A stretch of 48,190 nt of DNA, taken from IMG/VR virus record IMGVR_UViG_3300032085_000308, positions 1 through 48,190 of that record; one strand, given 5' to 3'. Under the pieces are notes generated by a model that worked only from the letters and a program-made list of their open reading frames with translations, ran no database searches and was not told the origin of the DNA. A program made the translations under genes and the position numbers. Positions within the stretch are counted from its first letter, which is position 1, and each line of letters starts with the position of its first letter. Of this stretch, positions 11,439 through 48,190 are shown one piece after another. This stretch comes from a virus.

Positions 11439-11508
11439 ATTAGAATTACCTATAATAAGTATATTTGTATTCTTATTTATAGTAAGTGTGTTAGAGAATA
11501 TACAATGA
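11419..11508 (+). CDS. 29-residue single-TM peptide
   Basis: ATG at 11419 lies inside the end of the preceding gene and the TGA overlaps the CsgF start as ATGA. The product has a short charged N-terminus (MTKEKIKLE) and one hydrophobic span of about 16 residues (IISIFVFLFIVSVL). Overlaps of exactly this kind join every gene in this stretch, which supports it as real. Its size and anchor fit a tiny lysis or antiholin-type peptide, but no homology can be claimed. Confidence 0.55.
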   Translation: MTKEKIKLELPIISIFVFLFIVSVLENIQ

Positions 11509-11999
11509 AATTAAAACCAACATTTAAAAGTAAAAAGAGTGAAAGGAACTGCAAGTTTTGTATGTTCTTTTGGTCTATGCTAATTATGTTTTGGTCTGTA
11601 GGAAGTATTGCAGATGAAGTTGTATTTAAGTTTAAGAGTCCTAGCTTTAGTGGTGTTAATACTAGCTCACATTATCTTACAATTCAGAACCAAGAGTTCA
11701 ATAGAAAACAAGCCCTTGCTGCAGAGATAAAAGCTTTACAAGACCAGATAGAAAGAGACAAAGAGAATACAACACTTGCAAGGTTCATAAGGAACTTGGA
11801 ATCACGTATATACTCACAGTTGTCAAGACAGTTAGTAGAAAATTTATTTGGAGAAACTCCTTCTGATTTTGGTACACTAACTTTAGAAGGCAATACAATA
11901 GTATACAAGGTAGAAGACGGAATAATAACTTTAACTATAACGGACAGTGATGGCAATTCAACGACTATATCTTTGCCTGTTGGTAACTTTACTTTCTAG
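11505..11999 (+). CDS. csgF: CsgF-like curli secretion accessory protein
   Basis: This 164-residue exported protein has an unusually long Lys-rich n-region, a hydrophobic core (~20-33) and a good signal peptidase site after SIA (mature start at Asp37). The mature N-terminus FKFKSPSFSG matches the CsgF signature (E. coli FQFRNPNFGG) that inserts into the CsgG pore and forms its second constriction; the two Phe of FxF, the Pro, the later Phe and the Gly are kept. A helical middle follows (~66-116), then a small beta domain (LTLEGNTIVYKVEDGIITLTI) like CsgF's C-terminus. In curli systems CsgF anchors nucleation at the cell surface. It overlaps csgG by about 50 bases, an order also seen in bacterial curli operons. 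Confidence 0.87.
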   Translation: MKLKPTFKSKKSERNCKFCMFFWSMLIMFWSVGSIADEVVFKFKSPSFSGVNTSSHYLTIQNQEFNRKQALAAEIKALQDQIERDKENTTLARFIRNLESRIYSQLSRQLVENLFGETPSDFGTLTLEGNTIVYKVEDGIITLTITDSDGNSTTISLPVGNFTF

Positions 12000-12804
12000 T
12001 TGTGCAGTAGTACAGGAGAGTGGAGACTTAGTTTTAACTAAAAGAATCCAGTCAAGTTCTACATTAGATTTACAATCAGAAGAATTAAGAAATTTACCAC
12101 CAGCTAAAGTAAAACCAACGATAGCAATATACCCTAATAGTTTTAGGGACTTAACAGGACAGCGTAGAAGTAACAGTACTTTTGCTTTGTTTAGTACAGC
12201 AGTAACACAAGCACCTGAAGCTTTTCTTATTAGAGCTTTTAAGCATACAGCAGGTGGAGAGTTTTTTAGAGTTGTAGAACGTGTAGGTTTAGATGACCTA
12301 ACAAAAGAAAGACAACTTATACGTAGTACACGTAAAGATTTTAAAGAAGATAATAAGATGCAACCACTGTTATTTGCAGGGTTGTTAGTTCAGGGTGGAG
12401 TGATTAGTTACGAAGCTAATTTAAAATCTGGTGGTTCTGGTGCAAGATACTTAGGTATTGGAACAAGCAAACAGTTTAGGGAAGACACAGTTACTATATC
12501 TTTAAGGTTAGTATCTGTATCTACCGGTGAAGTTCTTATGGAAACATTAGTATCCAAAAGCATTTTATCTACAAGTGTTTCTCAGGATGTATTTCGTTTT
12601 ATTGAAACTGGCACAGAGCTAGTAGAAATAGAAGGTGGTATATCAGAGAATGAAAGTGTTTCTATAGCGTTGCAAAAAGCTGTAGAGACTGGAGTATTAA
12701 ATATAATCAATATTGGAATAGAGAGAGGCTATTGGAAATATGAACAAACTAAAATTATTAAGCCTAATTGTACTGATGAATGTATCAGTGCTATACGGGG
12801 CTGA
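11950..12804 (+). CDS. csgG: CsgG-like outer-membrane lipoprotein, curli secretion channel
   Basis: The N-terminus is a lipoprotein signal with lipobox LSSC (Cys18 counted from ATG; a GTG one codon upstream is possible). The body follows E. coli CsgG closely: AIYPNSFRDLTGQ, FSTAV, a helix with RAFKH, VVERVGLDDLTKERQLIR, GVISYEANLKSGG followed by GARYLGIG, LRLVSVSTGEVL, VFRFIE and AVETGV. CsgG forms a nine-subunit beta-barrel that exports curlins through the outer membrane. At the constriction the Phe of FSTAV (E. coli Phe56) is kept, but the preceding Asn55 is Leu and the Tyr51 position is not aromatic by my alignment. The C-terminal 20 codons overlap the signal peptide of the next gene. Confidence 0.9.
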   Translation: MAIQRLYLCLLVTLLSSCAVVQESGDLVLTKRIQSSSTLDLQSEELRNLPPAKVKPTIAIYPNSFRDLTGQRRSNSTFALFSTAVTQAPEAFLIRAFKHTAGGEFFRVVERVGLDDLTKERQLIRSTRKDFKEDNKMQPLLFAGLLVQGGVISYEANLKSGGSGARYLGIGTSKQFREDTVTISLRLVSVSTGEVLMETLVSKSILSTSVSQDVFRFIETGTELVEIEGGISENESVSIALQKAVETGVLNIINIGIERGYWKYEQTKIIKPNCTDECISAIRG

Positions 12805-13456
12805 CAACGAAATATACATAGACCAATCAGGTGCTACGTTTAATCTAGATGCTGAACAGTTAGGTTCAGGTAACATCATAGGTGGAGCTGATGCAATTGC
12901 TGGTACTATGACTGCATTAGACTTAGACGGTGCTACACAAACCATAGACGTGAATCAAATTGGTTCAAACAATAAGTTCTTAGGAGACATTACTGCTGAT
13001 AACTTTGTAGGTTTTTGGGAGTTTGATGGTTCTACTAACGTATTCAATGTACAAATAGACCCTACTAATACTTATGGTGCTGATGGTTCTGATGTTAATG
13101 TTGATGTAACAGGTGGTACAAATACCTTTACATTAGACTTAGCAACTACAGCTCTTGCAAGTAATGCAGATGTTGACTGGGTTATTAATGGAGATGGCAA
13201 CACACTTGATTTTAACATTAACTACACTGACGCTACTAATGATGTAGATGTAGATGGTAACGATAATACTATCAACTTTACTGGTCAAGGCTATGCAGGT
13301 GGTTACTTTAAGTTAAATCAAACAGGTAATTCTAGAACATTTAACATACAACAAATGAGTACTTTAGACAATGACTGGTTACAAATTAATTCTACTGGTT
13401 CTAATGGTACTATCTGTGTCATTCAGAACGATGGGGGAAGTACAGTCGGTTGCTAA
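12740..13456 (+). CDS. Curlin-like secreted fibre subunit
   Basis: This 238-residue acidic protein has a clear signal peptide (residues 1-20) and a mature part made of short beta-strand repeats rich in Asn, Gly, Asp, Thr and Gln, with very few charges of the basic type. Curlin-like QxGxxN units appear at residues 29-34 (QSGATF, degenerate), 40-45 (QLGSGN), 73-78 (QIGSNN) and 194-199 (QTGNSR). The middle is a more Asp-rich repeat (NTLDFNI, NTINFTG). It ends with two cysteines (226 and 238). Directly following CsgF and CsgG, it is the obvious export substrate and may polymerise like CsgA/CsgB. Degenerate repeats make the amyloid inference weaker than for true CsgA. No separate CsgB, CsgE or CsgC is present. 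Confidence 0.75.
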   Translation: MNKLKLLSLIVLMNVSVLYGADNEIYIDQSGATFNLDAEQLGSGNIIGGADAIAGTMTALDLDGATQTIDVNQIGSNNKFLGDITADNFVGFWEFDGSTNVFNVQIDPTNTYGADGSDVNVDVTGGTNTFTLDLATTALASNADVDWVINGDGNTLDFNINYTDATNDVDVDGNDNTINFTGQGYAGGYFKLNQTGNSRTFNIQQMSTLDNDWLQINSTGSNGTICVIQNDGGSTVGC

Positions 13457-14495
13457 TATAGGCAACATAACTGAACTAAACGGAACAGGTAGAGTCGTAA
13501 GAGAAGTCCCTAAAGACTTAGACGAAACCTTCCAAGCTTCTCTTTCTTTAGACATAAACAGCTACGATAATGTCCAAACTTCTAACGGGAGATTGGGCAT
13601 TACTTTTTTAGATGACAGTCAAGTTAGATTGACAGAGCATTCTGAATTAATTATAGACGAATTTATCTATGACCCAGACCCTTCTAAGTCTAAGATGGCT
13701 TTACAATTTGCTAGTGGTACTGCAAGGTTTATCACTGGTAAGTTAGCATCTATAGATAAAGAAAACATATCTATACAAACTCCAAGTGCCACGATAGGTA
13801 TACGTGGTACAGACTTTACCGTGACTGTTGATGAGTTAGGTAGAAGTCTAATTATTTTATTACCTGATGACGATGGTCTTCCAAGTGGGGAGATTGTTGT
13901 ATCTACAGCAATGGGACAGGTGGTTCTTAACAAGCCTTATCAAGCTACTACAGTTTCTATGTTTGAAACTAAACCCACTAATCCCGTTATCCTTGACTTG
14001 ACTCTTGAGTTAATTGATAACATGTTAATTGTAAATAAACCACAGGAAATAAAAGAGAATGAAGGACAAGATGGAGGGAGCAACACTAATCTTCTTGATG
14101 TTGACTACCTTGAGTTTGATGATTTAGAAATAGATTATCTTGCAGAAGATGAATTAGAATTTACAGAGCTTGACATTAACTATCTTGATGTAAACTTTCT
14201 TGAAGACTTGTTAGACATTATAGAAGATGTCAATGAGCTAGACCAAACTTCAACACTTTTAAAGTCTGATATAGATTTAAAAGGTACGCAAATTGGTTAC
14301 GATAGTGAGACTCAGATAAATACTTTTATGACAGATAACGTCATAACATTTTACAAAGCTTTAGAAGACACGATTAAATTAGACTTAGATAAAACAAATG
14401 CTTACACCGTTGTAATGATACAGAACGGTAAGAGTACACAGATAGTTGTCAATGGTGGTGGTAACTCTAGCATAACTATAACGCAAGGAGACTAA
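13371..14495 (+). CDS. Exported FecR-domain protein with acidic repeats and curlin-like tail
   Basis: The chosen ATG gives a signal peptide (residues ~1-22, LILLVLMVLSVS) encoded in another frame inside the last 86 bases of the curlin-like gene. A FecR domain follows at ~70-155: GRLGITFLDDSQVRLTEHSEL, then LQFASGTARFITG and TPSATIGIRGTDFTV. In bacteria FecR domains sit in the periplasm and are often paired with CHASE2 cyclases. Residues ~241-290 form an acidic Leu/Tyr/Asp repeat (YLEFDDLEIDYL). The last 30 residues (VVNGGGNSSITITQGD end) resemble a curlin repeat. A shorter start at 13431 would lose the signal peptide. It ends one base before the cyclase, suggesting the two act together. Confidence 0.82.
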   Translation: MTGYKLILLVLMVLSVSFRTMGEVQSVANIGNITELNGTGRVVREVPKDLDETFQASLSLDINSYDNVQTSNGRLGITFLDDSQVRLTEHSELIIDEFIYDPDPSKSKMALQFASGTARFITGKLASIDKENISIQTPSATIGIRGTDFTVTVDELGRSLIILLPDDDGLPSGEIVVSTAMGQVVLNKPYQATTVSMFETKPTNPVILDLTLELIDNMLIVNKPQEIKENEGQDGGSNTNLLDVDYLEFDDLEIDYLAEDELEFTELDINYLDVNFLEDLLDIIEDVNELDQTSTLLKSDIDLKGTQIGYDSETQINTFMTDNVITFYKALEDTIKLDLDKTNAYTVVMIQNGKSTQIVVNGGGNSSITITQGD

Positions 14496-14496
14496 C

Positions 14497-16236
14497 ATGA
14501 AGTGGGCAATTACCTTATTAACTCTATTAACTTTACCTCTCCTCTTCAATAGTGTACCACTAGAAGTACTAAGACTCAAAACCTTTGATGCTCTTATAAC
14601 TGAACAAAGTCCAACCGGACACTTTACAATCCTCAACATAGGCGAACAATTCCTAGATGAACAGGGTGGATATCCTTTGCCTAGAGAAACACTTGCAAAG
14701 ATTCATAACGATATAATAAACAAAGGTGCATTAGGCGTGGGATGGGTGATGTTATTCCCACATGCAGATAGACTAGGTGGAGATGATGCATTCTCTAAAG
14801 CTTTACAAAGCTCTCCAAGTGTCATAGCTATGCCTGAAGTAACTAATGGTAATTATCCAAAGACAGTTGGTACTGTTATCAAAGGACCAATAGTGTCTTT
14901 ACCTAAAGCTCAAGGTTTCTTAGAGAACATAGAGCCTTTAAAACAATCAGCTAATCAAGGTGCTATATCTGCACCAGTAGATGTAGATAATTTAGTAAGG
15001 AGAATACCTTTACTACAACAAACTAATAATGGGTGGGTCGCTTCGTTTGGAACGGAAGTTTTAAAAATACTAGGAGGTGGTCGAACTTATCAGATTGTCA
15101 CAAATCTGAATGGAATAGAACAGGTTAGAGTGAGAGGCATTCCACCCATTGCCACAGATAGTCTTGGTCGTAAATGGATTAGCTGGGTAGATACACCACA
15201 GACTACACTAGAAGAACTAGATGTAGCTAATAAGTTTGTGTTCGTAGGCTTTACAGCAAAGGGAATATCCCCACAACTTGCAACACCTGTCGGGTTATTA
15301 GAACCTCATAAGATACAAGCTGCTCTATCAGAAAGTATGTTGATGGATACTCCTTACATACCAGACTATAGATTGTTTGTTGAGCTATTGTTATTGGTAC
15401 TGTCAGGCTTACTCACAGCTCTTGCAATCAATTATCTTGGTATCACTAAGGGTGTTGTATCCTTCTTAGGTTTGTTTTCTTTAATGGGATATATGGAGTA
15501 TCACTTTGTAAGCTCTAATATCTTGATAGACTTTACATGGGGCATGATAAGTATGACACTTATTGCTACCCAACAATTCTATCTAAACTTTAGAACACAA
15601 TTCAAACTTAGACAGCTTATAAAGAAACAGTTTGAACATTACCTTGACCCAAGACAAGTCAAACAACTACAAGATAATCCAGAGCTTTTGAAGTTAGGCG
15701 GAGAACGAAGACGTTGTACGTTTTTATTTACAGACGTGAGAGGCTTTACAAGTTTATCAGAAACTCTAGAGCCGGAAGAAGTTACAGAGATAATGAACAA
15801 GGCACTAACCATACAAGCTAATGCAGTTAAAGAGTATGGTGGTATGGTAGATAAGTATATAGGAGATGCAATGATGGCTATCTTCAATGCACCTATAGAC
15901 CTAGAACAACACGAAACCAAAGCAGTTCAAACAGCCTTGAAAATAAAACAAGATATGGCTGAAGCCGATTTAGGAATAGAGATAGGTATAGGGATAAATA
16001 CAGGAGAGGCGGTAATAGGTAATATGGGAAGCGATACAAGGTTTGATTACTCTGCAATTGGAGACGCTGTTAATCTAGCAGCAAGGTTAGAAAGTTCTAC
16101 TAAAGAAGTAGGAGAAGATATAGTAATTGGGTACACCACAGCTATGAACTCTGATATACCCACTAGGTATCTAGACCCTATAAAAGTAAAGGGTAAGAAA
16201 GATGATATTATTATCTACACTACTTTAGAACATTAA
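14497..16236 (+). CDS. CHASE2-domain class III adenylate cyclase
   Basis: This 579-residue inner-membrane receptor-cyclase has an N-terminal hydrophobic segment (4-20), a CHASE2 extracytoplasmic sensor (~25-285), three transmembrane helices (~292-312, 318-336, 342-362) and a class III cyclase domain (~400-579). Catalytic features are present: metal-binding Asp413 (FTDVRGFT) and Asp457 (YIGDAMMA), adenine-selecting Lys453, transition-state Asn526 and Arg530 (GDAVNLAAR). The second base-selecting position, normally Asp or Thr, is Ser519; Lys453 still favours ATP over GTP. It should convert ATP to cAMP in the host cytoplasm in response to a periplasmic signal. It follows the FecR gene by one base. 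Its 3' end overlaps the convergent small gene. Confidence 0.9.
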   Translation: MKWAITLLTLLTLPLLFNSVPLEVLRLKTFDALITEQSPTGHFTILNIGEQFLDEQGGYPLPRETLAKIHNDIINKGALGVGWVMLFPHADRLGGDDAFSKALQSSPSVIAMPEVTNGNYPKTVGTVIKGPIVSLPKAQGFLENIEPLKQSANQGAISAPVDVDNLVRRIPLLQQTNNGWVASFGTEVLKILGGGRTYQIVTNLNGIEQVRVRGIPPIATDSLGRKWISWVDTPQTTLEELDVANKFVFVGFTAKGISPQLATPVGLLEPHKIQAALSESMLMDTPYIPDYRLFVELLLLVLSGLLTALAINYLGITKGVVSFLGLFSLMGYMEYHFVSSNILIDFTWGMISMTLIATQQFYLNFRTQFKLRQLIKKQFEHYLDPRQVKQLQDNPELLKLGGERRRCTFLFTDVRGFTSLSETLEPEEVTEIMNKALTIQANAVKEYGGMVDKYIGDAMMAIFNAPIDLEQHETKAVQTALKIKQDMAEADLGIEIGIGINTGEAVIGNMGSDTRFDYSAIGDAVNLAARLESSTKEVGEDIVIGYTTAMNSDIPTRYLDPIKVKGKKDDIIIYTTLEH

Positions 16237-16438
16237 GTTCTCTTTGAAAGTAGTCATGTAAGTTTTCTAGTTTAGCTTTGCCATTTCTGATAATGGTTTT
16301 CATTAAGGGTCTATCATCAAGAGGGAACACCTCATCAACCATATTCTCCGGTAACATACTAAACTCTGTAACTATTTTGTTATCTCTTGTTAAGAGTATT
16401 TTGAAGCTTACTAAATTAGCTTCTTCTTTGTTAATCAT
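16220..16438 (-). CDS. Small hypothetical protein downstream of nrdB
   Basis: This 72-residue protein (start MINKEEANLVSFKILL) starts 1 base after the nrdB stop and is the last gene of the leftward arm. It has a beta-rich first half and a helical charged second half, with no cysteines or membrane segments. Its stop overlaps the convergent cyclase gene by 17 bases, leaving no room for a separate terminator. No family is recognised. Confidence 0.6.
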   Translation of the reverse strand: MINKEEANLVSFKILLTRDNKIVTEFSMLPENMVDEVFPLDDRPLMKTIIRNGKAKLENLHDYFQRELNVLK

Positions 16439-21262: not shown

Positions 21263-21668
21263 CTTCAGTTTCCTTAAATGCTTTTATGACATCTGATGAA
21301 AATAGTTTCTGAAGATTAACTAAGAACATTTTACTAGCGTTATGGTCTCCACCACATACAGTTTTAAAACTATCAAGGTCATCAACAATAGTTCTAAGTA
21401 CATCTGTTTTAAATACAAGAGTACAGAACTCGTTGTCTCCTACACATAAGTTATGAAACCAATAGTCTGATTCTGTTGCTCTGATTCCTGATGGTTTATT
21501 CCAAGACTCATACTCTATACATATGTTACCTGTCTTCATCCACATACCTTTCTCTGATTTAACTTCTATCTTCTTACCAGTTAGCATGTCCTTTATTTTA
21601 TCTTCTCTTATCTCTCCGTACTCTAAGTCAATGTCAAACTTCTTTCTATCTTTTTTAGTGGGTTTCAC
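21249..21668 (-). CDS. Probable PD-(D/E)XK-type endonuclease
   Basis: This 139-residue protein has a short nuclease-like core: FDIDLEYGE near 11-19, IEVKSEK at ~34-40 (E-x-K) and GNICIEYESW at ~47-56, the order of acid, ExK and beta-strand seen in PD-(D/E)XK enzymes. The start is GTG inside the end of the polymerase gene, preceded by GGAG. The protein is conserved in style with other marine phage replication operons, but I cannot name its family; structure prediction would settle it. Confidence 0.6.
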   Translation of the reverse strand: MKPTKKDRKKFDIDLEYGEIREDKIKDMLTGKKIEVKSEKGMWMKTGNICIEYESWNKPSGIRATESDYWFHNLCVGDNEFCTLVFKTDVLRTIVDDLDSFKTVCGGDHNASKMFLVNLQKLFSSDVIKAFKETEDEKK

Positions 21669-23385
21669 TCCAGTTATCTCCTATCTTGTATTCGCCATCT
21701 AAAGGACAACGAAGATTAAAATGTGTACCTGCTTTTACAATACTATCTACTGCAAAGTTTCCTATAAAATCAGCTTTATCTTTTGGTACTTCTATCTGCC
21801 ATTCATCATGTATGTTAGCTACAAACTTATATTCCATATCATTTAATTTTAAAACATCATCTAACATAACCAATGCTTGTTTCATTACAATAGCACCTGC
21901 ACCTTGTAGCAAAGTGTTCAATGCTGAATGTTGATTACGAACATATAGCTTCCTACCATCTAATCCTTTGAGATAATTTTTTGCTGAAGCTCTTTGTACT
22001 CTGTCTCTAAGAGACTTAAATGTAGGCTTATTATCAAAGAAATATTGTCTAGCTCTCTTACCATCTGATGTACTTCCTCCGACCACGCTTCCAAGTTTTT
22101 CATCTCCTGCTCCGTACATAAGTGCATAGATGAATGTCTTTGCCTTATCTCTTGATTCAAGGTTTGCAAGTTTTTGATTAGCGGTGTGTATGTCTCCATT
22201 GAGAATTTCATTTGTGTACTCCTCGTCATTCATGTAGTGAGCTAACATTCTAATCTCAAGACCAGAAGCATCAACTCCGATTAAAACATTACCTTCTTCT
22301 ACAGTCCAACATGCTCTACATTCCTTACCATAGGGACTATAGACTGCCGGTACTTGTGCCATGTTAGGATTCCTGTGTGTCATTCTTCCTGTGATAGCAC
22401 CATTAGGTATTACAAAGCCATGTACTCTTCCATCTTCTTGTACTCCTTCAACCCAAGAATCAACTTGAGCTATACGCTTTTGAAGTAGTAAGAAGTCTGC
22501 TATAAGTTTAGCTTCGTGTATGTGTGTGATTGCTGATAGGGTTTTCTCATCTACTATAGGCTGACCTGTAGGTGTAAACCTTTCAGGCTTCCAACCAAAG
22601 TCAATAAGATATTCTCCTATCTGTTTACGACTACCAAGATTAAAGTCTTGTAGTGTTTGTCTCATAAAAGGTTCAAAGTTATTTGTATCTAAACATCTTT
22701 GATACTCATCATCTGTAAGTCCACGCTTAGATAAGTCTCCATCTTTCTTGATGTAAGGCTTAACTAACTTATCATCTACCCACTTGGGTTTAAATGTATT
22801 GTGAACTTCATCTTCAATGGATTGTTTCTTTTCTCTAAGTTCAGCAAGTAATAACAATGCTGATTGTAAATCAAACTTAAATCCATTTACTTCTTGTTGT
22901 TTCATTATCCTAGCTACACCTTGTTCAATAGCTATACATTGTTTAGAGAATCCTTTACTCTCCTCTCTAAGTTTCTTTAATACTACAGCGTTGAGTTGTA
23001 CATCTCTAACACAATAGTCCAACATCTCTTTAGAATAATTAAGATAGTCTGAGAAATCTATCTTATGATATCCTAATTTGTAACCCCACTTCTCAAGGCT
23101 ATGACCACCTTCTCTATTAGGGTTGAACAGTCTTGATAGTACAAGAGTATCAATGACTGGTATCTTTGACAAGTCAACACCACCGAACTTCTCTACCATA
23201 GGTATGTCAAATCCGATGATGTTATGTCCTATTAAAGTATCTGCATTAGCTAACATATCATAACCTTCTTTCAATTTATCTGGAGGGAATTTATATATCT
23301 CTCCAGTATCCATATCTTGAGCAACGATACAATGTACCAGAGTTGCTTTAAGGTCATCTGTTTCTATGTCAAATACTAAGTCCAT
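21655..23385 (-). CDS. DNA polymerase, family A (T7-type) with 3'-5' exonuclease
   Basis: This 576-residue replicative polymerase keeps the proofreading acids: Asp6/Glu8 (DIET), Asp60 (GFDIP) and Tyr124/Asp128 (YCVRD). Polymerase motifs are motif A Asp372 (DASGLEIR), motif B Arg412/Lys416/Tyr420/Tyr424 (RDKAKTFIYALMYG) and motif C His526-Asp527-Glu528. The residue equivalent to E. coli Pol I Phe762 is Tyr420, as in T7, which is usually linked to virulent marine phages. There is no 5'-3' exonuclease domain. It joins the primase-helicase stop directly, so the two replisome components are co-translated. Confidence 0.96.
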   Translation of the reverse strand: MDLVFDIETDDLKATLVHCIVAQDMDTGEIYKFPPDKLKEGYDMLANADTLIGHNIIGFDIPMVEKFGGVDLSKIPVIDTLVLSRLFNPNREGGHSLEKWGYKLGYHKIDFSDYLNYSKEMLDYCVRDVQLNAVVLKKLREESKGFSKQCIAIEQGVARIMKQQEVNGFKFDLQSALLLLAELREKKQSIEDEVHNTFKPKWVDDKLVKPYIKKDGDLSKRGLTDDEYQRCLDTNNFEPFMRQTLQDFNLGSRKQIGEYLIDFGWKPERFTPTGQPIVDEKTLSAITHIHEAKLIADFLLLQKRIAQVDSWVEGVQEDGRVHGFVIPNGAITGRMTHRNPNMAQVPAVYSPYGKECRACWTVEEGNVLIGVDASGLEIRMLAHYMNDEEYTNEILNGDIHTANQKLANLESRDKAKTFIYALMYGAGDEKLGSVVGGSTSDGKRARQYFFDNKPTFKSLRDRVQRASAKNYLKGLDGRKLYVRNQHSALNTLLQGAGAIVMKQALVMLDDVLKLNDMEYKFVANIHDEWQIEVPKDKADFIGNFAVDSIVKAGTHFNLRCPLDGEYKIGDNWSETH

Positions 23386-25055
23386 TAAAATGCCTCGTCA
23401 AGACTAGCGTCAAAGGTTATGTCATCATCCGATATTTCAGATAGTCTGCCAGTTTCTGCATCATATATAACTCTACACGCCATACCTACATCTCCTGTAT
23501 ACCTAGACTTTAAGATACGAAGCTTTGTAGTTCTTGCTTCATCTTCATTATCTGATTGTTGATTACGTTCTAAAGCTATCACACAATCACTAAGTTGTCC
23601 AATACTATTTGAACCTCTTAGATGAGAGAGGGATACTTCAATACCATTCTCATGTCCTTTATTACCATCAACTCTACGTAAGTGTGAAACCAAAATGATT
23701 CCTGCACCTGTCTCTTCTACCAAACTTCTAAGTCTAGTCATGATAGAATCAATAGCACGTCTCTCATCTCCTTCATGCACAGCACTGACTAACATATGTA
23801 AATGGTCAACGACCACCCACTTGCAATCACATCCTATAATCATAAAGCGAAGCTTAGTAAAGATATCATCAATGTCATTCGTACCAAAGTGTGAATGAAC
23901 CCATACTCTATTCTTGTTCTGTCCATCATAAAGTATATCAAACATCTTATCTAGTTCTTCTTTAGAAAACTTCTCACGTTCTTGGTCAACGTATAACCTA
24001 GCATTAGCTTCAATAGATAAGATACCATCAATGGTTCTTCTCCAATCTTCTTCTAGTGCTATGATACCTACGTTATCAGTAGTGTTCTTAATAAGATGAT
24101 GTTCAAGTTCTCTTGTCACACTTGACTTACCAAGACCAGTACCACCTGTAAGTGTCACCAGTTCTCCTGCTCTAAGACCATACAACTTCTTGTTAAGTCC
24201 TTCATAAGGATAAGGAACGCTTTGTTTCTTCTCACGATTGTGAAACTTCTCACGCTGTTCAGATACATTTATAACACCAGAGGGTGTATAAACTTTAGCT
24301 GACCACCAACATTCAACAAACTCTTTGTGTCTGTTAGAACGAAGCATGTCGTTAGGGTCTTTGAATCCGTTAGGTAACGTAACTATCTTAGCCTTACTAG
24401 GTTTGAATAGTCTAGCAACTTTAATAGAAGCTTCCTTACCTGCCTTGTCATTATCAAATGCAATGATTACATTCTCAAACTCTTCAAAGAACTCAAGGCT
24501 TTCCTTGATATCCCTAACTGCTCCGTTTGCTCCACGCTTGATAGATACTACAGCCCACTTAGAACCTAAGAGTTCATAGGTAGCCATAGCATCACACTCG
24601 CCTTCTGTTATAGTGACATACTTGCCACCTTTAAATAACTGCTGACCAAACAAACCTGTGTCGTTGTAACTACCGGATAAAAAGAAATCTTTGTTCCTTA
24701 CGTTACGAACCTTAGTAGCTGATAGCTCATGTCCATTATAGAACGGATAGAAATGTTTAACGATATTACCTTGTAAATCATGTACACATTTAACCCCGTA
24801 CTTAGTGGCTGTAGCTTGAGATATTTTTCTGTCTGTTAAGGCTGAAAATTTTCCCTCATCTACTACATCAGGTTGTTTAGTTGTTGTCATTATCTTTTCT
24901 GTTTGCATATCCTTTCCTCCACATGCGTTAGTATAGCTCGGCATAAATTCTCCACAACTGAAACACTTTGCTGAATCATCTTCGTTGATTCCTACAGCAT
25001 CACTACTGTTACAAAGTGGACAAGGTTGATGTAGTTTGTCCCAAGTTTTATCCAT
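23385..25055 (-). CDS. DNA primase-helicase, T7 gp4-type
   Basis: This 556-residue bifunctional protein starts at ATG 25055, with GAGGG upstream; a GTG four codons earlier is less likely. It has a zinc-binding domain (Cys12/15 and Cys31/34), a TOPRIM primase domain (Glu151 in TEGECDA, Asp201-x-Asp203), and a DnaB/gp4-like RecA helicase domain with Walker A at 304-311 (GGTGLGKS) and Walker B near WVVVDHLHM, followed by VSHLRR and SLSHLRGS. The acidic C-terminus (DDDITFDASLDEAF) fits the gp4 tail that touches the polymerase. It unwinds DNA and primes the lagging strand. Confidence 0.95.
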   Translation of the reverse strand: MDKTWDKLHQPCPLCNSSDAVGINEDDSAKCFSCGEFMPSYTNACGGKDMQTEKIMTTTKQPDVVDEGKFSALTDRKISQATATKYGVKCVHDLQGNIVKHFYPFYNGHELSATKVRNVRNKDFFLSGSYNDTGLFGQQLFKGGKYVTITEGECDAMATYELLGSKWAVVSIKRGANGAVRDIKESLEFFEEFENVIIAFDNDKAGKEASIKVARLFKPSKAKIVTLPNGFKDPNDMLRSNRHKEFVECWWSAKVYTPSGVINVSEQREKFHNREKKQSVPYPYEGLNKKLYGLRAGELVTLTGGTGLGKSSVTRELEHHLIKNTTDNVGIIALEEDWRRTIDGILSIEANARLYVDQEREKFSKEELDKMFDILYDGQNKNRVWVHSHFGTNDIDDIFTKLRFMIIGCDCKWVVVDHLHMLVSAVHEGDERRAIDSIMTRLRSLVEETGAGIILVSHLRRVDGNKGHENGIEVSLSHLRGSNSIGQLSDCVIALERNQQSDNEDEARTTKLRILKSRYTGDVGMACRVIYDAETGRLSEISDDDITFDASLDEAF

Positions 25056-25073
25056 GTTAGCCCTCACTATGAA

Positions 25074-25332: not shown

Positions 25333-25746
25333 TTAAAATTCCTCGTTGTCTGAACTTGGTTCAGTGTATTCAATTAAATTAGTAACCTTTACAGCTATTA
25401 ACTCTGCAAACGTACCATACTTTCCTGTGTAAGGTTTAATCTTCACAGTAACTTCAGAGCCATTACCAAGACTAACATCTAAGTCGTTACCATCAGCGTC
25501 AACTAACTTAGGTGCAGGATTGGTAGTCCCATCATGTCGTTCTACTTTTCTACTGAATGAGAAAGCCGGTTCATCATACTTAGCTTGACCATCTCTGGTT
25601 CTTACTCTTGATAAACCTGCACCCTCTAATCTGGTAGCAGTATCTTCATCAGTCAACACAACAATTCCATACTTATGTGGCTCAAACTTAGTGTTTGGTG
25701 TGCTGACATTAGCCCACATAGCTTTTCCTTCTACATACTCATACAT
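25333..25746 (-). CDS. Putative ssDNA-binding protein (gp2.5-like role)
   Basis: This 137-residue protein has a beta-rich body resembling an OB fold (EGKAMWANVSTPNTKF, YGIVVLTDED, EVTVKIKPYTGKYG) and an acidic tail ending in DNEEF, the usual protein-docking tail of SSBs. It is first in the polymerase/helicase operon and has a good ribosome site (GGAGG). A diverged relative lies at 27019-27402, sharing the EGKxMWA start. It should coat unwound DNA and recruit the polymerase and helicase. The family is inferred from pattern, not from a definite signature. Confidence 0.7.
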   Translation of the reverse strand: MYEYVEGKAMWANVSTPNTKFEPHKYGIVVLTDEDTATRLEGAGLSRVRTRDGQAKYDEPAFSFSRKVERHDGTTNPAPKLVDADGNDLDVSLGNGSEVTVKIKPYTGKYGTFAELIAVKVTNLIEYTEPSSDNEEF

Positions 25747-29780: not shown

Positions 29781-30134
29781 CAAATAATCAAGATATTTAT
29801 TTTATTTATTTTCGTTGATTCGCTTTACATTTCTTTTAAAGTGTAGTAATGATTCATAGTACTGTACATTCATACAGTCGAATCGAGCTTAGACTTTTTA
29901 GATACTAGGGGTAGACTTTGCCCAACTATTCAATACAGAGGCTCTCATTGAGTCCGATAAAGTTTAGTTATGTTGTATTATAAGTGGTGTTTATATCTTG
30001 TAAATCTTGTATAGTTTTAAAAGTTTTTGAAGTCTTATAGTCTTATAAAACAATCAGGCACAGTCAGTCTCTCTTATTGTGTATTTTAAAAAGCTAACAG
30101 CACCCCCAAATTAATAGGGGTTTTTTATTTTATA
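29781..30134. other. Noncoding gap with inverted repeat and terminator-like hairpin
   Basis: No gene fits in the 414 bases from 29721 to 30134. Besides the promoter there is an inverted repeat ACTGTA-6-TACAGT (29861-29878), a GGG/CCC stem near 29909-29924, and CCCC-loop-GGGG followed by six T (30103-30126). The last would terminate rightward RNA; AAAAA on the other side could make it serve the leftward gene at 30135 as well. Direct repeats of TAGACTTT and GTCTTATA are also present. A small rightward RNA ending at 30126 is possible. Confidence 0.35.
30103..30126 (+). terminator. Terminator-like hairpin with T-tract
   Basis: ACCCC and GGGGT flank a 10-base loop, and six T follow on the plus strand. 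The stem is short, and the T-tract points rightward although the adjacent coding genes are leftward. It may act in both directions. Confidence 0.4.
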
Positions 30135-31796: not shown

Positions 31797-31865
31797 TATT
31801 TACTCCTTTTGTAAATGTTATTTAATTGAATAAACATTAACAGTTTAAAAAGAGAATGCAAGTAC

Positions 31866-31903: not shown

Positions 31904-32241
31904 GCTGTACAAAAATTATACAGCTTGTAAAGAGGAGAAGTGTATTATAAGTGTTGGTTATAAGTAGATATAAGTTTTATGAAGTTTTTAAAGTTGTATA
32001 AAAATTGTACAGTTTATAAATTGTATAAATTTTATACACTTTTCACGTGGCATTAACTAGAAAAGGTATGACACTTTTAAAGGGGAGTATGACACTTTTA
32101 AAGACTTTAAAAGCTTGTAAAGTTATCCACAGAGTTATCCACAGGTTATACATGACACACTTTTAAAGTGGATAAGCTGTTGATATCCTGTGGATAAGTT
32201 TTTAAAGTAGGGGGGCAGGAGGTACAGGGGGGGTGGGTGGG
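31904..32241. other. Putative replication origin: DnaA boxes, direct repeats, G-tract
   Basis: The 786-base gap 31797-32582 has no gene. It holds two perfect DnaA boxes TTATCCACA (32123-32131, 32135-32143), a third perfect one on the other strand (32189-32197), and a one-mismatch copy (32167-32175). Three copies of ATGACAC(AC)TTTTAAAG lie at 32068-32082, 32089-32103 and 32152-32168, the first two 21 bases apart. An AT-rich stretch at 31960-32040 could unwind. A G-rich tract with quadruplex pattern lies at 32210-32241. The gap is where the two transcription arms diverge. An origin recognised by host DnaA is the simplest reading. Confidence 0.7.
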
Positions 32242-32547
32242 TATATATATAAATCTTATACATTTCTACCCAATAGTGGTATTAACCAGTTGGGCTTTAT
32301 AAAGCTTTAAAACTTTAAAAACGTGATAAGCTTTTATATACTTTACAACACAGAATAACCCCTAGTATTTGTTAAGTTTGTTATAACAAGTTATGGGGAT
32401 TATGAAGTATGATTGATAAATATTTGTTAGGTTAGGATGGGGCTATATTAGGTATTTAAAACTGGGGACGTTTTCAACTTTATTATACACATACTTTTCA
32501 ATTTTGTCAAGTACTTTGTGCAAATACTTTAAAATATGTTAAAAGAC

Positions 32548-32576
32548 TTGACAAACTTGTAAAGTATGACTATAAT
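32548..32576 (+). promoter_or_regulatory. Consensus sigma-70 promoter of the rightward arm (leaderless)
   Basis: TTGACA (32548-32553), exactly 17 bases, then TATAAT (32571-32576): a perfect match to the bacterial housekeeping promoter. The terminase small subunit ATG begins only 7 bases after the -10 box, which is where transcription should start. There is no ribosome site, so the mRNA is predicted to be leaderless or nearly so. Confidence 0.85.
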
Positions 32577-32582
32577 ATAAGC

Positions 32583-33005
32583 ATGAGTTACCTACCAGAA
32601 AAGAAGAGAAACCTAACTGAGAAACAAGAAGCATTCTTGAATCACTTAGTAGACACTGGTGGGGATTTCAAAAAGTCAGCCGAACTTGCAGGGTATTCAG
32701 GCAATCACTATCAAATATTAAAAGCACTTAAAAACGAAGTAGTGGATTTAGCCAGTGACGTACTTGCAAGGGAAGCCCCAACAGCAGCATTCAAGCTTAT
32801 AGATATAATGAAATCAGATAAGCCTGTTCCCCAAGCTAACAATAAGTTACAAGCTGCACAGACGATACTAGATAGGGCTGGTGTTGTTAAGACGGATAAA
32901 GTAGATATTAATCATAATGTTAGTGGCGGTATCTTTATACTACCAGAAAAGCATACGATTGATATAGAAGCAGAGGATGCTAGTTATGAAACTTTGGATA
33001 ACTGA
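32583..33005 (+). CDS. Terminase small subunit
   Basis: This 140-residue protein has the small-terminase N-terminus LTEKQEAFLNHLVDTGGDFKK followed by a helix-turn-helix (~27-48, SAELAGYSGNHYQILKAL), a helical middle (APTAAFKLIDIMKSD and KLQAAQTILDRAG) for oligomerisation, and a flexible acidic end. It should recognise the packaging site and regulate the large subunit encoded 1.4 kb downstream. It is the first gene of the rightward arm behind a consensus promoter, with the start codon at the predicted transcription start. Confidence 0.82.
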   Translation: MSYLPEKKRNLTEKQEAFLNHLVDTGGDFKKSAELAGYSGNHYQILKALKNEVVDLASDVLAREAPTAAFKLIDIMKSDKPVPQANNKLQAAQTILDRAGVVKTDKVDINHNVSGGIFILPEKHTIDIEAEDASYETLDN

Positions 33006-42417: not shown

Positions 42418-44019
42418 ATGGCACGTTCACAACCTTTTACCGTAGCATGTGCAGGTGGCTTAGTAACATCAGCTAACTCAATAGACTTGTTACGTACACC
42501 CGGAGTTGCTACAGTTTTACAAAACTTTGAAGTATCTATTGAAGGTGGATATAGACGTATTAATGGTTTTAGTAAGTTTGGTGCAGGAGATGCAGTTCAA
42601 CCTACAGGTGGTGTAACAACTATACTAGGTACTCAACCTTATGCAGATGGTGTTGTAGTTACTGCAGGTACTAACATATACTTTACACAAGACGGTATTA
42701 CATGGGTAACAATAAATAGATTATCTGCAGGTAGTGGAGATAACTATTCAACCTTTACAGGTAAAAGTATTGCAGCAAGAACTGGACAAGGACAATGTCA
42801 GTTTGCAATGTTTGAAGGTGCTGGACAAGATTACGGAACTATAATAATAGCTGATGGTGTTAATGAACCTTTTAGTTTTAGAATGGAAGGTACAGGAGCT
42901 TTAAGTACAAGAACATACTTTACAGAAGAGATAACAGTTACAGGTACTAAAGGTGTACAGTTTATTACATCCCATGACCATCATTTAATAGCTGCTGGTG
43001 TAACTGATAATGAAAATACAGTTTACTATAGTGTTAATAATGACCCTACATCTTTTTCAGGAACTGGTGCAGGTGCAGTAACTATATCAGATAAGATAGT
43101 AGGTATTAAAGGTTTCCGTACAGATTTATTTATATTTTGTGAAAACAGTATTCATAAACTTATAAACATTAATAACTCAAGTACAGTAGCAGTAGTACCT
43201 GTTGCTGAAAGTGTAGGATGTTTAAGTGGCTACAGTATTCAAGAGATTGGTGGTGATTTAATATTTTTAGCACCTGATGGTTTAAGAACAGTTGCTGGTA
43301 CATCAAGAATTGGTGACGTTGAGTTAGGTACAGTTAGTAAATCAATACAGCCTATTATAACAGAACTAGCACAAAATGTCAATGACTATACAATAAGTAG
43401 TGTAGTATTAAGAGAAAAATCACAATATAGATTATTTTATAGTGATACAGACTTGACAAATGTTACACAGAAAGGTATAATAGGTACATTAAGACCTAAT
43501 GGTTTTGAATGGTCTGAAATGTTAGGTATGGAAGTTACAGCTATAGGTTCAGGATTTGATACTCAAGGTATTGAAAAATATTATCATGGTGATACAAATG
43601 GTTATGTTTATTTACATAACTCAGGTGATGATTTTGATGGTGCTGCAATAGATGCAAGATATCAAACACCTGATTATGATTACGGAGACTTTGGAACTTT
43701 AAAAACTTTACACTACGTTAAACTTTCAATAGGTCCTGAAAATGAAGTACAGCCTTCAGTAAGAATTAGATTTGATTACGACAGTAACGAAACACCACAA
43801 CCAGAAGATTATATATTAGACAGCGTACCAGCTCCATCAATATTTGGTAGTGCTTTATTTGGCACTGCAAAGTTTGGAGCATCTGAACAGCCTTTAGTTA
43901 GGTTAGCATTACAAGGTAGTGGTTACTCTAATAGCTTTAGAATATTAACAAACGATACAAACGCACCATACACAATAAACGGACTATACATAGATTACAT
44001 TCCATCAGGTAGGAGATAA
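42418..44019 (+). CDS. Tail nozzle-type protein (T7 gp12-like role)
   Basis: This 533-residue beta-rich protein begins PFTVACAGGLVTSANSIDLL, a start common to podovirus tail tube B/stabilisation proteins, followed by FEVSIEGGYRRINGFSKFG. A seven-bladed-propeller-like repeat pattern is likely in the middle. It ends in NGLYIDYIPSGRR. Two bases after the adaptor stop; the tail fibre begins 5 bases after its own stop. Confidence 0.72.
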   Translation: MARSQPFTVACAGGLVTSANSIDLLRTPGVATVLQNFEVSIEGGYRRINGFSKFGAGDAVQPTGGVTTILGTQPYADGVVVTAGTNIYFTQDGITWVTINRLSAGSGDNYSTFTGKSIAARTGQGQCQFAMFEGAGQDYGTIIIADGVNEPFSFRMEGTGALSTRTYFTEEITVTGTKGVQFITSHDHHLIAAGVTDNENTVYYSVNNDPTSFSGTGAGAVTISDKIVGIKGFRTDLFIFCENSIHKLININNSSTVAVVPVAESVGCLSGYSIQEIGGDLIFLAPDGLRTVAGTSRIGDVELGTVSKSIQPIITELAQNVNDYTISSVVLREKSQYRLFYSDTDLTNVTQKGIIGTLRPNGFEWSEMLGMEVTAIGSGFDTQGIEKYYHGDTNGYVYLHNSGDDFDGAAIDARYQTPDYDYGDFGTLKTLHYVKLSIGPENEVQPSVRIRFDYDSNETPQPEDYILDSVPAPSIFGSALFGTAKFGASEQPLVRLALQGSGYSNSFRILTNDTNAPYTINGLYIDYIPSGRR

Positions 44020-44024
44020 ACACA

Positions 44025-47000
44025 ATGGCAGGTTACACAAGACAAAGTACATTCGCAGACGGAGATACAATCACTGCTGCATTATTTAATAATGAGTACA
44101 ACCAAGTTTTAAATGCTTTTAGCAATACAGGTGGTCATAAACATGATGGCACTGCTGCAGAAGGACCAGTTATAGGTCTTATTGGTGATGCAGGAGTTGT
44201 TACTCCTCTTAACAAAGTTTTAATAGATAGTACCAATGACCATATAGAGTTTTGGGTAGACGTATCAAGTTCTTCTGTACAACAATTATACATAGCAGAT
44301 GGAGCTATAGTTCCTGTTACAGACAGTGATGTAGACTTAGGTACAACAGGTTTAAGATTTAAAGATGCTTACATAGATACAGTTACTACAACTGGTAATG
44401 TTGCAGTAGGTGGTAATCTAACAGTTACAGGTACAACTACTTTTAACGGTGGTACAATCACTATGGGTGATGCAGCTACTGACAATGTTGTCTTTGGTGC
44501 TGATGTTGATTCAAACATTATCCCTGATGATGATGACGCTTATGACTTAGGTAGTTCTTCACAAGAGTGGAGAAACCTTTACATAGACGGTACAGCTAAC
44601 ATTGATAGCCTTGTAGCTGATACAGCAGACATTAATGGTGGTACTATTGATGGTGCTGTTATTGGTGGTTCAAGTGCTGCAGCTATTACAGGTACAGCTA
44701 TTACTGGTACAAGCTTTGTAATCGGTAGTGCTACTATAACTGAAGCAGAACTAGAAATACTAGATGGTGCTACAGTAACTACAGACGAGTTAAATATCCT
44801 AGATGGCGTTACAAGCACTGCTGCTGAATTAAATTTATTAGATGGAGTAACTAGTACAACTGCAGAATTAAACATCTTAGATGGCGTTACAGCTAGTGCA
44901 GCAGATATTAATCTTATAGATGGTATAACTAACGGAACTGTTATAGCAAGTAAAGCAATTATCACAGATGCTAACAAAGACATTACAGGTGGTAGAAACA
45001 TTACTATCTCCGGAGAACTTGATGCAGGTTCGTTAGATGTAAGTGGCGATGTAGATGTTGATGGTACACTTGAAACAGATGCACTATCTATAAATGGTAC
45101 AGTAGTTACAAGTACAGCCGCAGAACTAAATATTTTAGATGGTGTGACAGCCACTGCGACAGAAATAAACCTTATAGATGGCGTAACTGCAACAACTGCA
45201 GAACTTAACATCCTTGACGGTGTTACAGCTACAGCAGCAGAAATAAACGCTCTTGATGGTATTACTTCAACAGTTGCAGAACTAAACATATTAGACGGAG
45301 TAACATCCACTGCAGCAGAGTTAAACCTACTTGACGGTAAAGCTTTCCTTGATGAAGATGACATGTCTTCAAACAGTGCTACAGGTATTGCTTCTCAACA
45401 AAGTATTAAAGCTTATGTAGATACACAAATTACTGCAGAAGACTTAGACATTACAACAGACAGTGGAACTATTGCAATTGACTTAGATAGTGAAACATTG
45501 ACTGTATCAGGTGGTACAGGTCTTGATAGTTCTGCAACAGGTAATGCAGTTACTTTAGCAATTGATAGTACAGTAACAACTCTTACAGGCTCACAAACTC
45601 TTACAAACAAATCACTAACTGCTCCTACACTTACAGGCACTGCTGTAGTAGCTTCTTTAGACATCTCAGGCGATATAGACGTAGACGGAACTACTAACCT
45701 TGACGTAGTAGATATAGATGGTGCTGTAGACTTTGCATCTACAACAGCTCACGCAGGTAATGCAACTTTTGCTGACAATGCTAAAGCTATCTTTGGAGCA
45801 GGTTCAGATTTACAGATATATCATGATGGTAGTAATAGTTTTGTTCAAGATACTGGAACTGGAGACTTATATTTACAAGGTTCTTCTAATATATATTTTA
45901 GAAAAGGAGACGGTGGCGAAGTATTTGCACATTTTGCAGATGATGGTGCTTGTAAGTTAAGATTTGATAACTCAACAAAATTTGAAACAACCTCAACAGG
46001 CATAGACGTTACAGGAATCATCGTAAGTGATGGTATGTCTACTAACACTTCAGGAACTTCTAACTTTATAGCAGGTGTTAACGCAGGTAACTCCATTACA
46101 AGCGGTGGTAATTTTAATGTCCTCGTAGGTGATGAAGCAGGTACTGCTCTTACTACAGGTGATAATAATGTTGCATTAGGTTATAAAGCTCTGTTTACAG
46201 AAGATACAGGTAATAGAAGTGTTGCTATAGGTGACTTTTCTTTACAAAATCAAAATAATGCTGACAGTAATTACAATGTTGCAGTTGGGTACAACTCAGG
46301 TTTATCAATAACCACAGGCACAGTCAACACCCTTATAGGCGGACTAGCTGGTGATACTTTAACTATAGGAAACAGTAATGTTGCAGTAGGTTATGACTCT
46401 TTAGGTGCCGAAGTTGCAGGAGACAGAAACGTAGCTATCGGTGTAACGGCACTAAAGAATCAAACTAACGCTTCTACCGTAGATTCTTACAACACAGCAG
46501 TAGGCTATGGTGCAGGTCTAGCAGTAACCACAGGCACACTCAATACTCTCATCGGTGGACTAGCAGGTGATGCAATTACTACAGCAGATAATAATGTTGC
46601 TCTAGGACATAATTCTTTAGGAGTAAATACTACAGGAAATGCTAATACTGCTATCGGTGAAAATGCATTACAAGCAAATACAACTGCAAGTAATAATGTT
46701 GCTGTTGGTAGAAGAGCAATGTATGATAATACGACTGGTACTGATAATGTTGCTATGGGACATAATGCTCTTGATGCAAATACAACAGCTTCAAATAATA
46801 CAGCAATAGGACATGATGCTCTTACAGCAAACACTACAGGTACTCAAAACACAGCAGTAGGTTCGTTATCTTTAGCTGCTAACACTACAGCAGATAACAA
46901 CGAAGCTTTCGGTTATGGAGCATTAAATGTTAATACTACAGGTAATAATAATTCTGCAATCGGTTCTCTAGCCTTGCTTGATAACACTACAGGTAATAGT

Positions 47001-48190
47001 AATGTAGCAGTTGGTAGGTCAACATTAGAAAATAATACAACAGCATCTTACAATACTGCAATTGGTAGAGGTGCTTTAAAAGCAAACACTACAGCAGCAA
47101 ATAACACTGCTGTTGGTTATAGCTCTTTACTAGCAAACACTACAGGTCGTCAATCTGTAGCAATAGGTTCAGGTGCTTTAGCAGCTAATACCACAGCTCA
47201 CAGTAATACAGCAGTTGGATATAATACTTTAAATGATAATACTACAGGAACATTAAATACAGCAATTGGTGCTTTTACATTAGATGTCAACACCACAGGA
47301 GATAACAATACTGGTTTAGGATATGGTGCTTTAAGCGAAAACACCACAGCATCTAACAATACCGCAGTTGGTCATCTTGCTATGTTAGCAAACACTACAG
47401 GTGCTAATAACACTGCTGTTGGTTATAACTCTTTATTAGCAAATACTACAGCTAGTGGTAACACTGCTTTTGGTTATAACACAGGTAATTCTACTACTAC
47501 AGGTGCTTTTAATACATTTTTAGGTAAAGATGCAGGTTCTTCTAATACGACTGCATCAAGTAATACTTTTATTGGAGAAAGAGCAGGGCTTAATAATACA
47601 ACAGGTGATGAATCAGTTGCAATAGGGCAGTTTTCTTATTCAGCAAATACTACTGGTATAGATAATGTTGCTGTAGGAAGGAGTGCATTAGCAGGAAATA
47701 CTACAGCTTCAAATAATACAGCTATTGGTAGAGCAGCTTTAGGAGCAAACACTGAAGGTTCTGAAAACACAGCAGTAGGTGGTACAGCTTTAGATGCCAA
47801 TACAACTGGTGATAATAATATAGCAATTGGGTATGCTTCTTTAGGTGCGAATACTACAGGTAGTGATAATGTGTCAATCGGTGTATTAGCCTTAGACGCA
47901 AATACAACTGCAAGTAACAATACAGCAGTTGGAACATCTGCTTTAGGAGCAAACACTACAGGTACTCAAAATACAGCAGTTGGTTCTAATGCTTTAGATG
48001 CTAATACCACAGCTTCTAATAACACTGCTTTCGGTTACGCAGGTTTAGGAGCAAACACAACTGGTGCTGCAAATACAGCAGTAGGAGGAGGTGCTTTAGC
48101 TAGTAATACAACTGCAAGTAATAATACTGCTGTAGGAGAAAGTGCTTTATTATCAAACACTACAGGTGTAAATAACACAGCCTTAGGTGC
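44025..48190 (+). CDS. Giant tail fibre protein, truncated at window end
   Basis: This frame stays open from ATG 44025 to the last base: at least 1388 residues. AGGAG precedes it. The N-terminal part has GYTRQSTFADGDTITAALFN then GGHKHDG, usual in marine phage tail fibres. Residues ~236-440 contain about ten copies of a TAAELNILDGVT-type repeat. From ~690 on there are about thirty copies of a 22-24-residue repeat (NTAVGxxALxANTT), the YadA-head left-handed beta-roll pattern, implying a long trimeric shaft. Receptor-binding end and stop codon are outside the window. The repeats are protein-level, with the DNA copies diverged. Confidence 0.85.
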   Translation, partial: MAGYTRQSTFADGDTITAALFNNEYNQVLNAFSNTGGHKHDGTAAEGPVIGLIGDAGVVTPLNKVLIDSTNDHIEFWVDVSSSSVQQLYIADGAIVPVTDSDVDLGTTGLRFKDAYIDTVTTTGNVAVGGNLTVTGTTTFNGGTITMGDAATDNVVFGADVDSNIIPDDDDAYDLGSSSQEWRNLYIDGTANIDSLVADTADINGGTIDGAVIGGSSAAAITGTAITGTSFVIGSATITEAELEILDGATVTTDELNILDGVTSTAAELNLLDGVTSTTAELNILDGVTASAADINLIDGITNGTVIASKAIITDANKDITGGRNITISGELDAGSLDVSGDVDVDGTLETDALSINGTVVTSTAAELNILDGVTATATEINLIDGVTATTAELNILDGVTATAAEINALDGITSTVAELNILDGVTSTAAELNLLDGKAFLDEDDMSSNSATGIASQQSIKAYVDTQITAEDLDITTDSGTIAIDLDSETLTVSGGTGLDSSATGNAVTLAIDSTVTTLTGSQTLTNKSLTAPTLTGTAVVASLDISGDIDVDGTTNLDVVDIDGAVDFASTTAHAGNATFADNAKAIFGAGSDLQIYHDGSNSFVQDTGTGDLYLQGSSNIYFRKGDGGEVFAHFADDGACKLRFDNSTKFETTSTGIDVTGIIVSDGMSTNTSGTSNFIAGVNAGNSITSGGNFNVLVGDEAGTALTTGDNNVALGYKALFTEDTGNRSVAIGDFSLQNQNNADSNYNVAVGYNSGLSITTGTVNTLIGGLAGDTLTIGNSNVAVGYDSLGAEVAGDRNVAIGVTALKNQTNASTVDSYNTAVGYGAGLAVTTGTLNTLIGGLAGDAITTADNNVALGHNSLGVNTTGNANTAIGENALQANTTASNNVAVGRRAMYDNTTGTDNVAMGHNALDANTTASNNTAIGHDALTANTTGTQNTAVGSLSLAANTTADNNEAFGYGALNVNTTGNNNSAIGSLALLDNTTGNSNVAVGRSTLENNTTASYNTAIGRGALKANTTAANNTAVGYSSLLANTTGRQSVAIGSGALAANTTAHSNTAVGYNTLNDNTTGTLNTAIGAFTLDVNTTGDNNTGLGYGALSENTTASNNTAVGHLAMLANTTGANNTAVGYNSLLANTTASGNTAFGYNTGNSTTTGAFNTFLGKDAGSSNTTASSNTFIGERAGLNNTTGDESVAIGQFSYSANTTGIDNVAVGRSALAGNTTASNNTAIGRAALGANTEGSENTAVGGTALDANTTGDNNIAIGYASLGANTTGSDNVSIGVLALDANTTASNNTAVGTSALGANTTGTQNTAVGSNALDANTTASNNTAFGYAGLGANTTGAANTAVGGGALASNTTASNNTAVGESALLSNTTGVNNTALG

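Follow-up and report, generated by a model that had tools for sequence, protein, structure and literature searches.

How does replication start in a phage that carries a T7-like replisome and no RNA polymerase of its own? T7 itself relies on its own RNA polymerase at its origins, and the phages with a T7-like replisome that lack this enzyme include abundant marine groups. The question is raised by a virus contig of 48,190 bases (the window, meaning the whole stretch analysed), in which four DnaA boxes lie in a module of about 240 bp at 32053–32289. A preliminary description of this DNA had suggested that the phage borrows host DnaA to open its origin. On balance, the sequence leads us to favour, with some reserve, a reading in which the module serves as a replication origin of modular build, with an initiator cassette to which, in this phage, host DnaA binds. 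The DnaA boxes are one of several interchangeable types of a cassette of about 150 bp, the interior of the module, which holds DnaA boxes in some phages and is swapped for unrelated repeats in others.

Between 31.8 kb and 16.4 kb the genes point leftward, among them those for a ribonucleotide reductase, a Cas4-type nuclease and the replisome; rightward genes start at 32.6 kb with the terminase small subunit (TerS; 32583..33005, + strand; phrog_2538, E 4e-06), followed by TerL, portal and capsid. The closest annotated phages by TerL are the pelagiphages HTVC115P, 103P and 104P (64–65%), then HTVC033P and the CRP roseophages, and the primase is 46% identical to that of the HTVC103P group. With terminase and replication genes homologous to those of the HTVC103P/HMO-2011-type group, the window is, as judged from its genes, a podovirus without RNA polymerase that is kin to these marine phages. 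PMC8528129 describes uncultured HTVC103P-type relatives, including a group IV for which that paper gives no known host, and the window may be a member of that group IV. TerL matches in genomes fell in Maricaulis, Sphingobacteriales and SAR86 bins; because these three bins disagree, host assignment from TerL was dropped.

The T7-like replisome named in the preliminary description was borne out by a T7 gp4-like primase-helicase with Toprim and DnaB_C domains (23385..25067), a family A DNA polymerase (21655..23385; PF00476, 7e-51) and a Gp2.5-like single-strand binding protein (SSB; 25333..25746; phrog_112, 1e-07), all on the minus strand. Its statement that the phage shows no RNA polymerase also held: no single-subunit RNA polymerase (PF00940) was detected in the window and nine relatives (10 records), and the control HTVC019P was positive at 4e-106. 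The pairing that marks a T7-type origin, a single-subunit RNA polymerase of the phage's own and its promoter, is therefore not found. Neither a DnaA_C domain nor an IstB/DnaC-type helicase loader was detected in 11 records. As a separate observation, positions 44205–45877 of contig G006, the record that contains locus L031, hold a primase-helicase frame with several stops and a stretch of 54% identity, perhaps an assembly error or a mosaic gene.

The cluster of boxes exceeds what chance would produce. Three exact copies of TTATCCACA and one near-box lie within 75 bp, and no other exact copy occurs in 48,190 bases. Box 1 (32123–32131) and box 2 (32135–32143, 12 nt past box 1) are exact and on the plus strand; box 3 (32167–32175, one mismatch) and box 4 (32189–32197, exact) are on the minus strand, which confirms the three perfect and one near-perfect boxes described earlier. 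Two exact boxes within 100 bp were seen in 0 of 400 order-2 Markov copies of the window, and the number of exact-box triples expected under the Markov model is 2e-7. Looser matches do not stand out: the window is not enriched in the loose consensus TTWTNCACA (6 found versus 7.7 expected) or in boxes with one mismatch or fewer (18 versus 15.5 expected), and what is unusual is confined to the exact cluster. A further box-like sequence, TTATACACA at 32483, overlaps the −10 element of a leftward promoter; it was set aside and is probably not an additional DnaA box.

The same pattern holds in related phages. In eight DnaA-type contigs, taken whole (about 290 kb), all 14 exact boxes fall in the cassette. 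Across 62 cassettes, an exact box is present in 18 and two or more in 11, a count in which the window scored 2 instead of 3 (the cut clipped one box) and related cassettes are not independent; among Markov copies, 78 of 20,000 had one exact box and 0 of 20,000 had two. When 13 DnaA-type cassettes were aligned, the box columns showed a mean identity of 0.927 versus 0.77 elsewhere. Box 2 is invariant in 13/13, but none of boxes 1, 3 and 4 by itself clearly exceeds the conservation of an average 9-nt window of the cassette.

The module is bounded by the window's only two copies of TTAACYAG, the left anchor TTAACTAG (32053..32060, +) and the right anchor TTAACCAG (32282..32289, +), and contains, from left to right, the 17-mers, boxes 1 and 2, a partial repeat, box 3, an IHF-type site, box 4, a G-rich tract and an AT block. 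Most relatives have an anchor-like copy about 180–260 nt to the left of their AT block, irrespective of the cassette. Three direct repeats of 15–17 bases had been reported here: two are identical 17-mers, GTATGACACTTTTAAAG (32066..32082 and 32087..32103, +), whereas the third, ACACTTTTAAAGTGGA (32157..32172, +; 94% over 16 bases), fits only their second half. TATGACACTTTTAAAG occurs with 0 mismatches only at 32067 and 32088. The bases TAAGCTGTTGATA on the plus strand at 32173..32185 form an exact IHF-consensus site on the minus strand, one of six such matches in 48 kb, and the site overlaps a weak DnaA-like TGTTGATAT that is invariant in 13 DnaA-type cassettes. The exact IHF consensus is found in 13/14 DnaA-type cassettes, 5/5 of the half type and 3/43 others (these three of the palindrome type), and with one mismatch allowed, at −90 to −60, in 27/62; the assignment to IHF is by consensus match only.

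To the right of the boxes, the G-rich tract, with GGCAGGA and GGGGGGGTGGGTGGG (32210..32241, +), recurs in relatives and is a possible G-quadruplex. However, 39 of the 62 cassettes have a G-rich and 23 a C-rich tract, so that it has no fixed strand, and an explanation by G-quadruplex or R-loop polarity was rejected on this count. The AT block TATATATATAAATCTTATACATTT (32242..32265) is a candidate duplex-unwinding element (DUE): the 25-mer at 32242 belongs to the least stable 0.1% of the window, so that the unstable AT element of a DnaA-dependent origin is present, with the plus-strand boxes about 100 bp off. Just outside the module lie the window's only three TGTAYAAWWWTTRTACA palindromes (31906, 31995 and 32022; 31906..32038), and palindromes of the same type fill the cassettes of loci L007, L020 and L030. 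Separately, the motif CTTKTAAAG occurs 17 times in the window versus 3 expected, with seven copies within 31924–32564, and also punctuates other cassette types.

The geometry of transcription was also considered. A leftward (32482..32510, −) and a rightward (32548..32576, +) sigma-70 promoter, TTGACA-17-TATAAT, both match at 12/12 positions and are conserved in relatives. The preliminary description had placed the boxes where transcription diverges, which is roughly right; because the divergent promoters lie to the right of the module, the boxes are not at the divergence point itself and instead sit within the leader of the leftward transcript, about 285–360 bp downstream of its −10. Rightward promoters inside cassettes were weighed as alternative openers and rejected, a good match being present in 5/46 loci, none with DnaA boxes. 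The GC-skew check proposed earlier gave a cumulative minimum at 31806, near the module, and a maximum at 16325, the gene-convergence point. However, the maxima at 16325 (window), 17322 (HTVC115P) and 19007 (CRP-1) all fall on convergent gene ends and not half a genome away; the skew follows gene direction in these three genomes, cannot show an origin and was rejected as evidence for one.

We determined which parts of the module persist in relatives by a search with TerS, which gave 80 loci, six of which were dropped because they begin inside TerS (L039, L040, L075, L076, L080 and L081). The core, defined as a GGCAGG-type tract (G-rich or C-rich) followed by TATATATATAAA...ATACATTT, is present in 70 of the 74 usable loci, 243–372 bp upstream of TerS; the pattern was not found in L009, L051 and L062, whose contigs are too short, or in L042. 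Matched by eye and not by the pattern, the same core is seen in 9/11 isolate records: at the record ends of HTVC115P, 103P, 104P and, weakly, 033P and of CRP-1, 603, 9 and 345, and in HMO-2011. CRP-3 and CRP-235, of which short ends were read, did not show it.

The cassette behaves differently. At 65% identity, the 30 nearest loci with enough upstream sequence form seven classes: DnaA (13, including the window), half (5), palindrome (3), GTG (3) and three smaller ones. The half type consists of the right part only and has an exact box in 4/5. The larger set of 62 cassettes comprises the window and 61 of the 74 loci; it omits the 11 loci that are short left of the core (L002, L003, L009, L018, L029, L034, L035, L036, L051, L053 and L062), L042, which has no core, and L079, whose omission had no sequence-based reason. 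Two pairs show the exchange most directly. L014 and L017 share the 350 nt to the left of TerS, core included, and a gene block further left, and differ at 7/2716 positions downstream, yet their cassettes differ. L046 and L049 differ at 1/3402 positions downstream and keep the left anchor region, and only L049 has DnaA boxes. The L049 cassette shows 42% identity, within the range of shuffled cassettes, and has two exact boxes and one near-box in the same place; because it is unrelated in sequence yet has its boxes there, they were apparently acquired separately.

A tree of 50 loci built from 2 kb downstream (49 of the 74 loci plus the window, some near-duplicates left out, quick search) requires at least 11 changes in the presence of the DnaA cassette, a count that downstream recombination could inflate. 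In this tree the sister of the window is L007, which has a palindrome-type cassette and no DnaA boxes. The box cluster does recur in relatives, as the preliminary description had asked to be checked: 13 related cassettes, drawn from many metagenomes, are of the DnaA type, and the sequence to either side of the swap is homologous. The replisome is unchanged across cassette types. Full-length primase-helicases of IMG/VR relatives are 86–96% identical to the window's with or without a DnaA cassette (91% in the palindrome-type L020), and SSB identity to the window is 90–99% in near relatives and 66–75% in farther ones. A cassette-linked initiator gene was sought and not found, the first leftward genes being common to the DnaA and GTG types (left flanks are short in several loci); no informative family match was obtained for the two leftward proteins nearest to the cassette.

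These comparisons bear on why a phage would use DnaA at all. The box cluster was found in 0/11 isolate records, among which HTVC115P, HTVC103P and HMO-2011 have the same layout; it is also absent from CHOED, MQM1, Slicky01, CRP-4 and ICBM2, which have homologous genes, and from the control HTVC019P. Vibrio phage D274, found by a short DNA match only, has three scattered boxes and no cluster. Two of the five box-less phages with homologous genes are cobaviruses, which PMC6918029 reports to be without RNA polymerase. The earlier suggestion that the missing RNA polymerase explains the borrowing of DnaA is thus not supported, in view of L007, HTVC115P, HTVC103P and HMO-2011, and DnaA as a general solution for phages without the polymerase was rejected in view of CHOED, MQM1, Slicky01, CRP-4 and ICBM2, the polymerase search having covered the window and nine other relatives. 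What survives of the borrowed-DnaA proposal draws on the replisome, the absent RNA polymerase, the host-type promoters, the DUE-like AT block, the IHF consensus, the conserved boxes and the recurrence in relatives. Since other cassettes occur in relatives together with the same core and replisome, DnaA would be one of several usable openers.

The reading that we favour would work as follows. The module at 32053–32289 would be the phage replication origin. The G-rich tract and AT block, conserved in sequence, would form its common core and the likely place of strand opening, and the left ~150 bp, seen to be exchanged between relatives, would act as an interchangeable initiator cassette, with two boxes pointing rightward, two leftward and an IHF-type site in this phage. 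Host DnaA would load on the cassette and, with the help of IHF or a comparable DNA-bending protein, melt the AT block; the T7-gp4-like primase-helicase could then assemble on the single strand. Neither an RNA polymerase of the phage nor a helicase loader would be needed to start forks, and the phage primase would do the priming. We infer opening, helicase loading and priming from the kinds of proteins present. Against this reading count the distance of about 100 bp between the plus-strand boxes and the AT block, the modest conservation of boxes 1, 3 and 4 one by one, the skew maximum at converging genes, and the lack of boxes in the sister L007 and of a box cluster in the 11 isolate records.

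Known systems resemble this arrangement in part. A bacterial oriC of the E. coli type has opposed groups of DnaA boxes, an IHF-type site and a nearby AT-rich unstable stretch. The module shares these elements; unlike oriC, it has two boxes each way about 100 bp from the AT block with a G-rich tract between, it would work beside a phage-coded helicase and polymerase, and its cassette is exchangeable. The window has the same class of primase-helicase, polymerase and SSB as T7, but encodes no phage RNA polymerase. Origins of the iteron plasmid and lambda types that carry accessory DnaA boxes (P1 and F; PMC5043065) likewise combine short direct repeats, boxes and an A+T-rich opening region; by contrast, no adjacent initiator gene was found here and the repeats change completely between close relatives. 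The HTVC103P-/HMO-2011-type podoviruses (PMC8528129, PMC6918029) are similar in TerL and primase homology, in gene layout and, by eye, in a core at the divergence, whereas the isolates examined have other palindromes or repeats in place of a DnaA cluster.

Several other functions could account for parts of the module. The cassette might be an operator array in the leftward early leader, where DnaA or another binder would slow or time transcription or sense the replication state of the host. We consider such transcription control unlikely, although it deserves weight: the cluster lies downstream of a perfect leftward promoter, operator-like palindromes fill other cassettes, and DnaA is known as a transcription factor (PMC8203912). 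It leaves unexplained the conserved AT block, the G-rich tract and the near-constant anchor spacing, and because the adjacent leftward genes are common to different cassette types, no regulator is seen to travel with the cassette. A role in packaging, with the core as a cos or pac site and the cassette as an accessory binding region, seems improbable to us. The core does precede TerS, and 6/74 relative contigs (L003, L018, L034, L035, L036 and L053) begin within 20 nt of the junction between tract and AT block. However, a G-run beside a variable cassette would also be expected to break contigs; L002 begins with a long poly-C run at this junction, other contigs and the window run through it, and the contig starts may reflect an assembly break, a sequencing artefact or a physical end. 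Moreover, the core lies kilobases from TerS/TerL, still at the divergence, in CRP-1, CRP-603, CRP-345, CRP-9 and HMO-2011. The linkage to terminase expected of a cos or pac site thus fails across relatives (CRP-1, CRP-603, HMO-2011), and the core goes with the divergence and not with the packaging genes.

Many phage copies of the boxes and the IHF-type site could also sequester DnaA or, in the manner of datA, stimulate hydrolysis of its ATP, and so shut off host replication. As described in PMC5835720, E. coli datA has two consensus boxes and four with one misfit and needs an IHF site; the layout of the module is close to this, with at least two exact boxes packed together with near-boxes and an IHF-type site. 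Unlike those of datA, the window's boxes lie next to a DUE-like block and to a phage core that is conserved. A sink would need no particular position, yet these boxes sit in the cassette beside the core, in a slot that sister phages fill with unrelated repeats, and we regard the sink as quite improbable. Tandem boxes of such spacing are common in viral contigs (at least 120 among the matches listed), as might be expected if the cluster were a chimeric assembly or a functionless fragment captured from a host or plasmid origin. Such an accident is very hard to credit, given that the cassette recurs in 13 related forms across many metagenomes and that the flanks left and right of the swap are homologous.

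The favoured reading, an origin with a DnaA-bound cassette, can be extended, more tentatively, to a widespread marine phage lineage: such phages may possess a plug-in origin, in which a conserved melting core and one replisome are combined with a ~150-bp cassette that is swapped between near-identical genomes, some plugs using host DnaA and IHF and others other binders. If so, these phages could change which host signal triggers their replication, perhaps evading parasites or nucleases directed at the origin or adapting to a new host, and the choice of initiator would be a fast-evolving, exchangeable trait that the replisome does not fix. The conserved core marks precisely where to look, and the cassette swaps supply natural allele pairs, such as L046/L049, with almost no difference beyond the presumed initiator sites. 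Searches of open-access papers gave no publication on DnaA boxes in phages of the HTVC103P or HMO-2011 type; a Pseudomonas phage with an Ori-Finder-predicted origin that contains DnaA boxes is described in PMC11512268.

Other features of the window are recorded here in their own right. Positions 11505–16236 (+) carry a curli-secretion-like set beside a signalling enzyme: CsgF (PF10614, 6e-18), CsgG (PF03783, 2e-48), a FecR-domain protein, a CHASE2-adenylate/guanylate cyclase and a repeat protein that is curlin-like by eye and has no Pfam match. A very long open reading frame (44013–48188, +) runs past the contig end and contains many near-identical short repeats of the NTTGxxNTAxG type; its product is likely a tail-fibre-type protein. 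Finally, CTGTATAAACATACAG-type sites, which we take to fit the LexA-box pattern of gammaproteobacteria, lie upstream in L014, L021, L023, L025 and L033. In the window this pattern has 2 matches versus 0.9 expected, with CTGTACATTCATACAG at 29862–29877, and such LexA-box-like sites may hint at the host or at SOS control.
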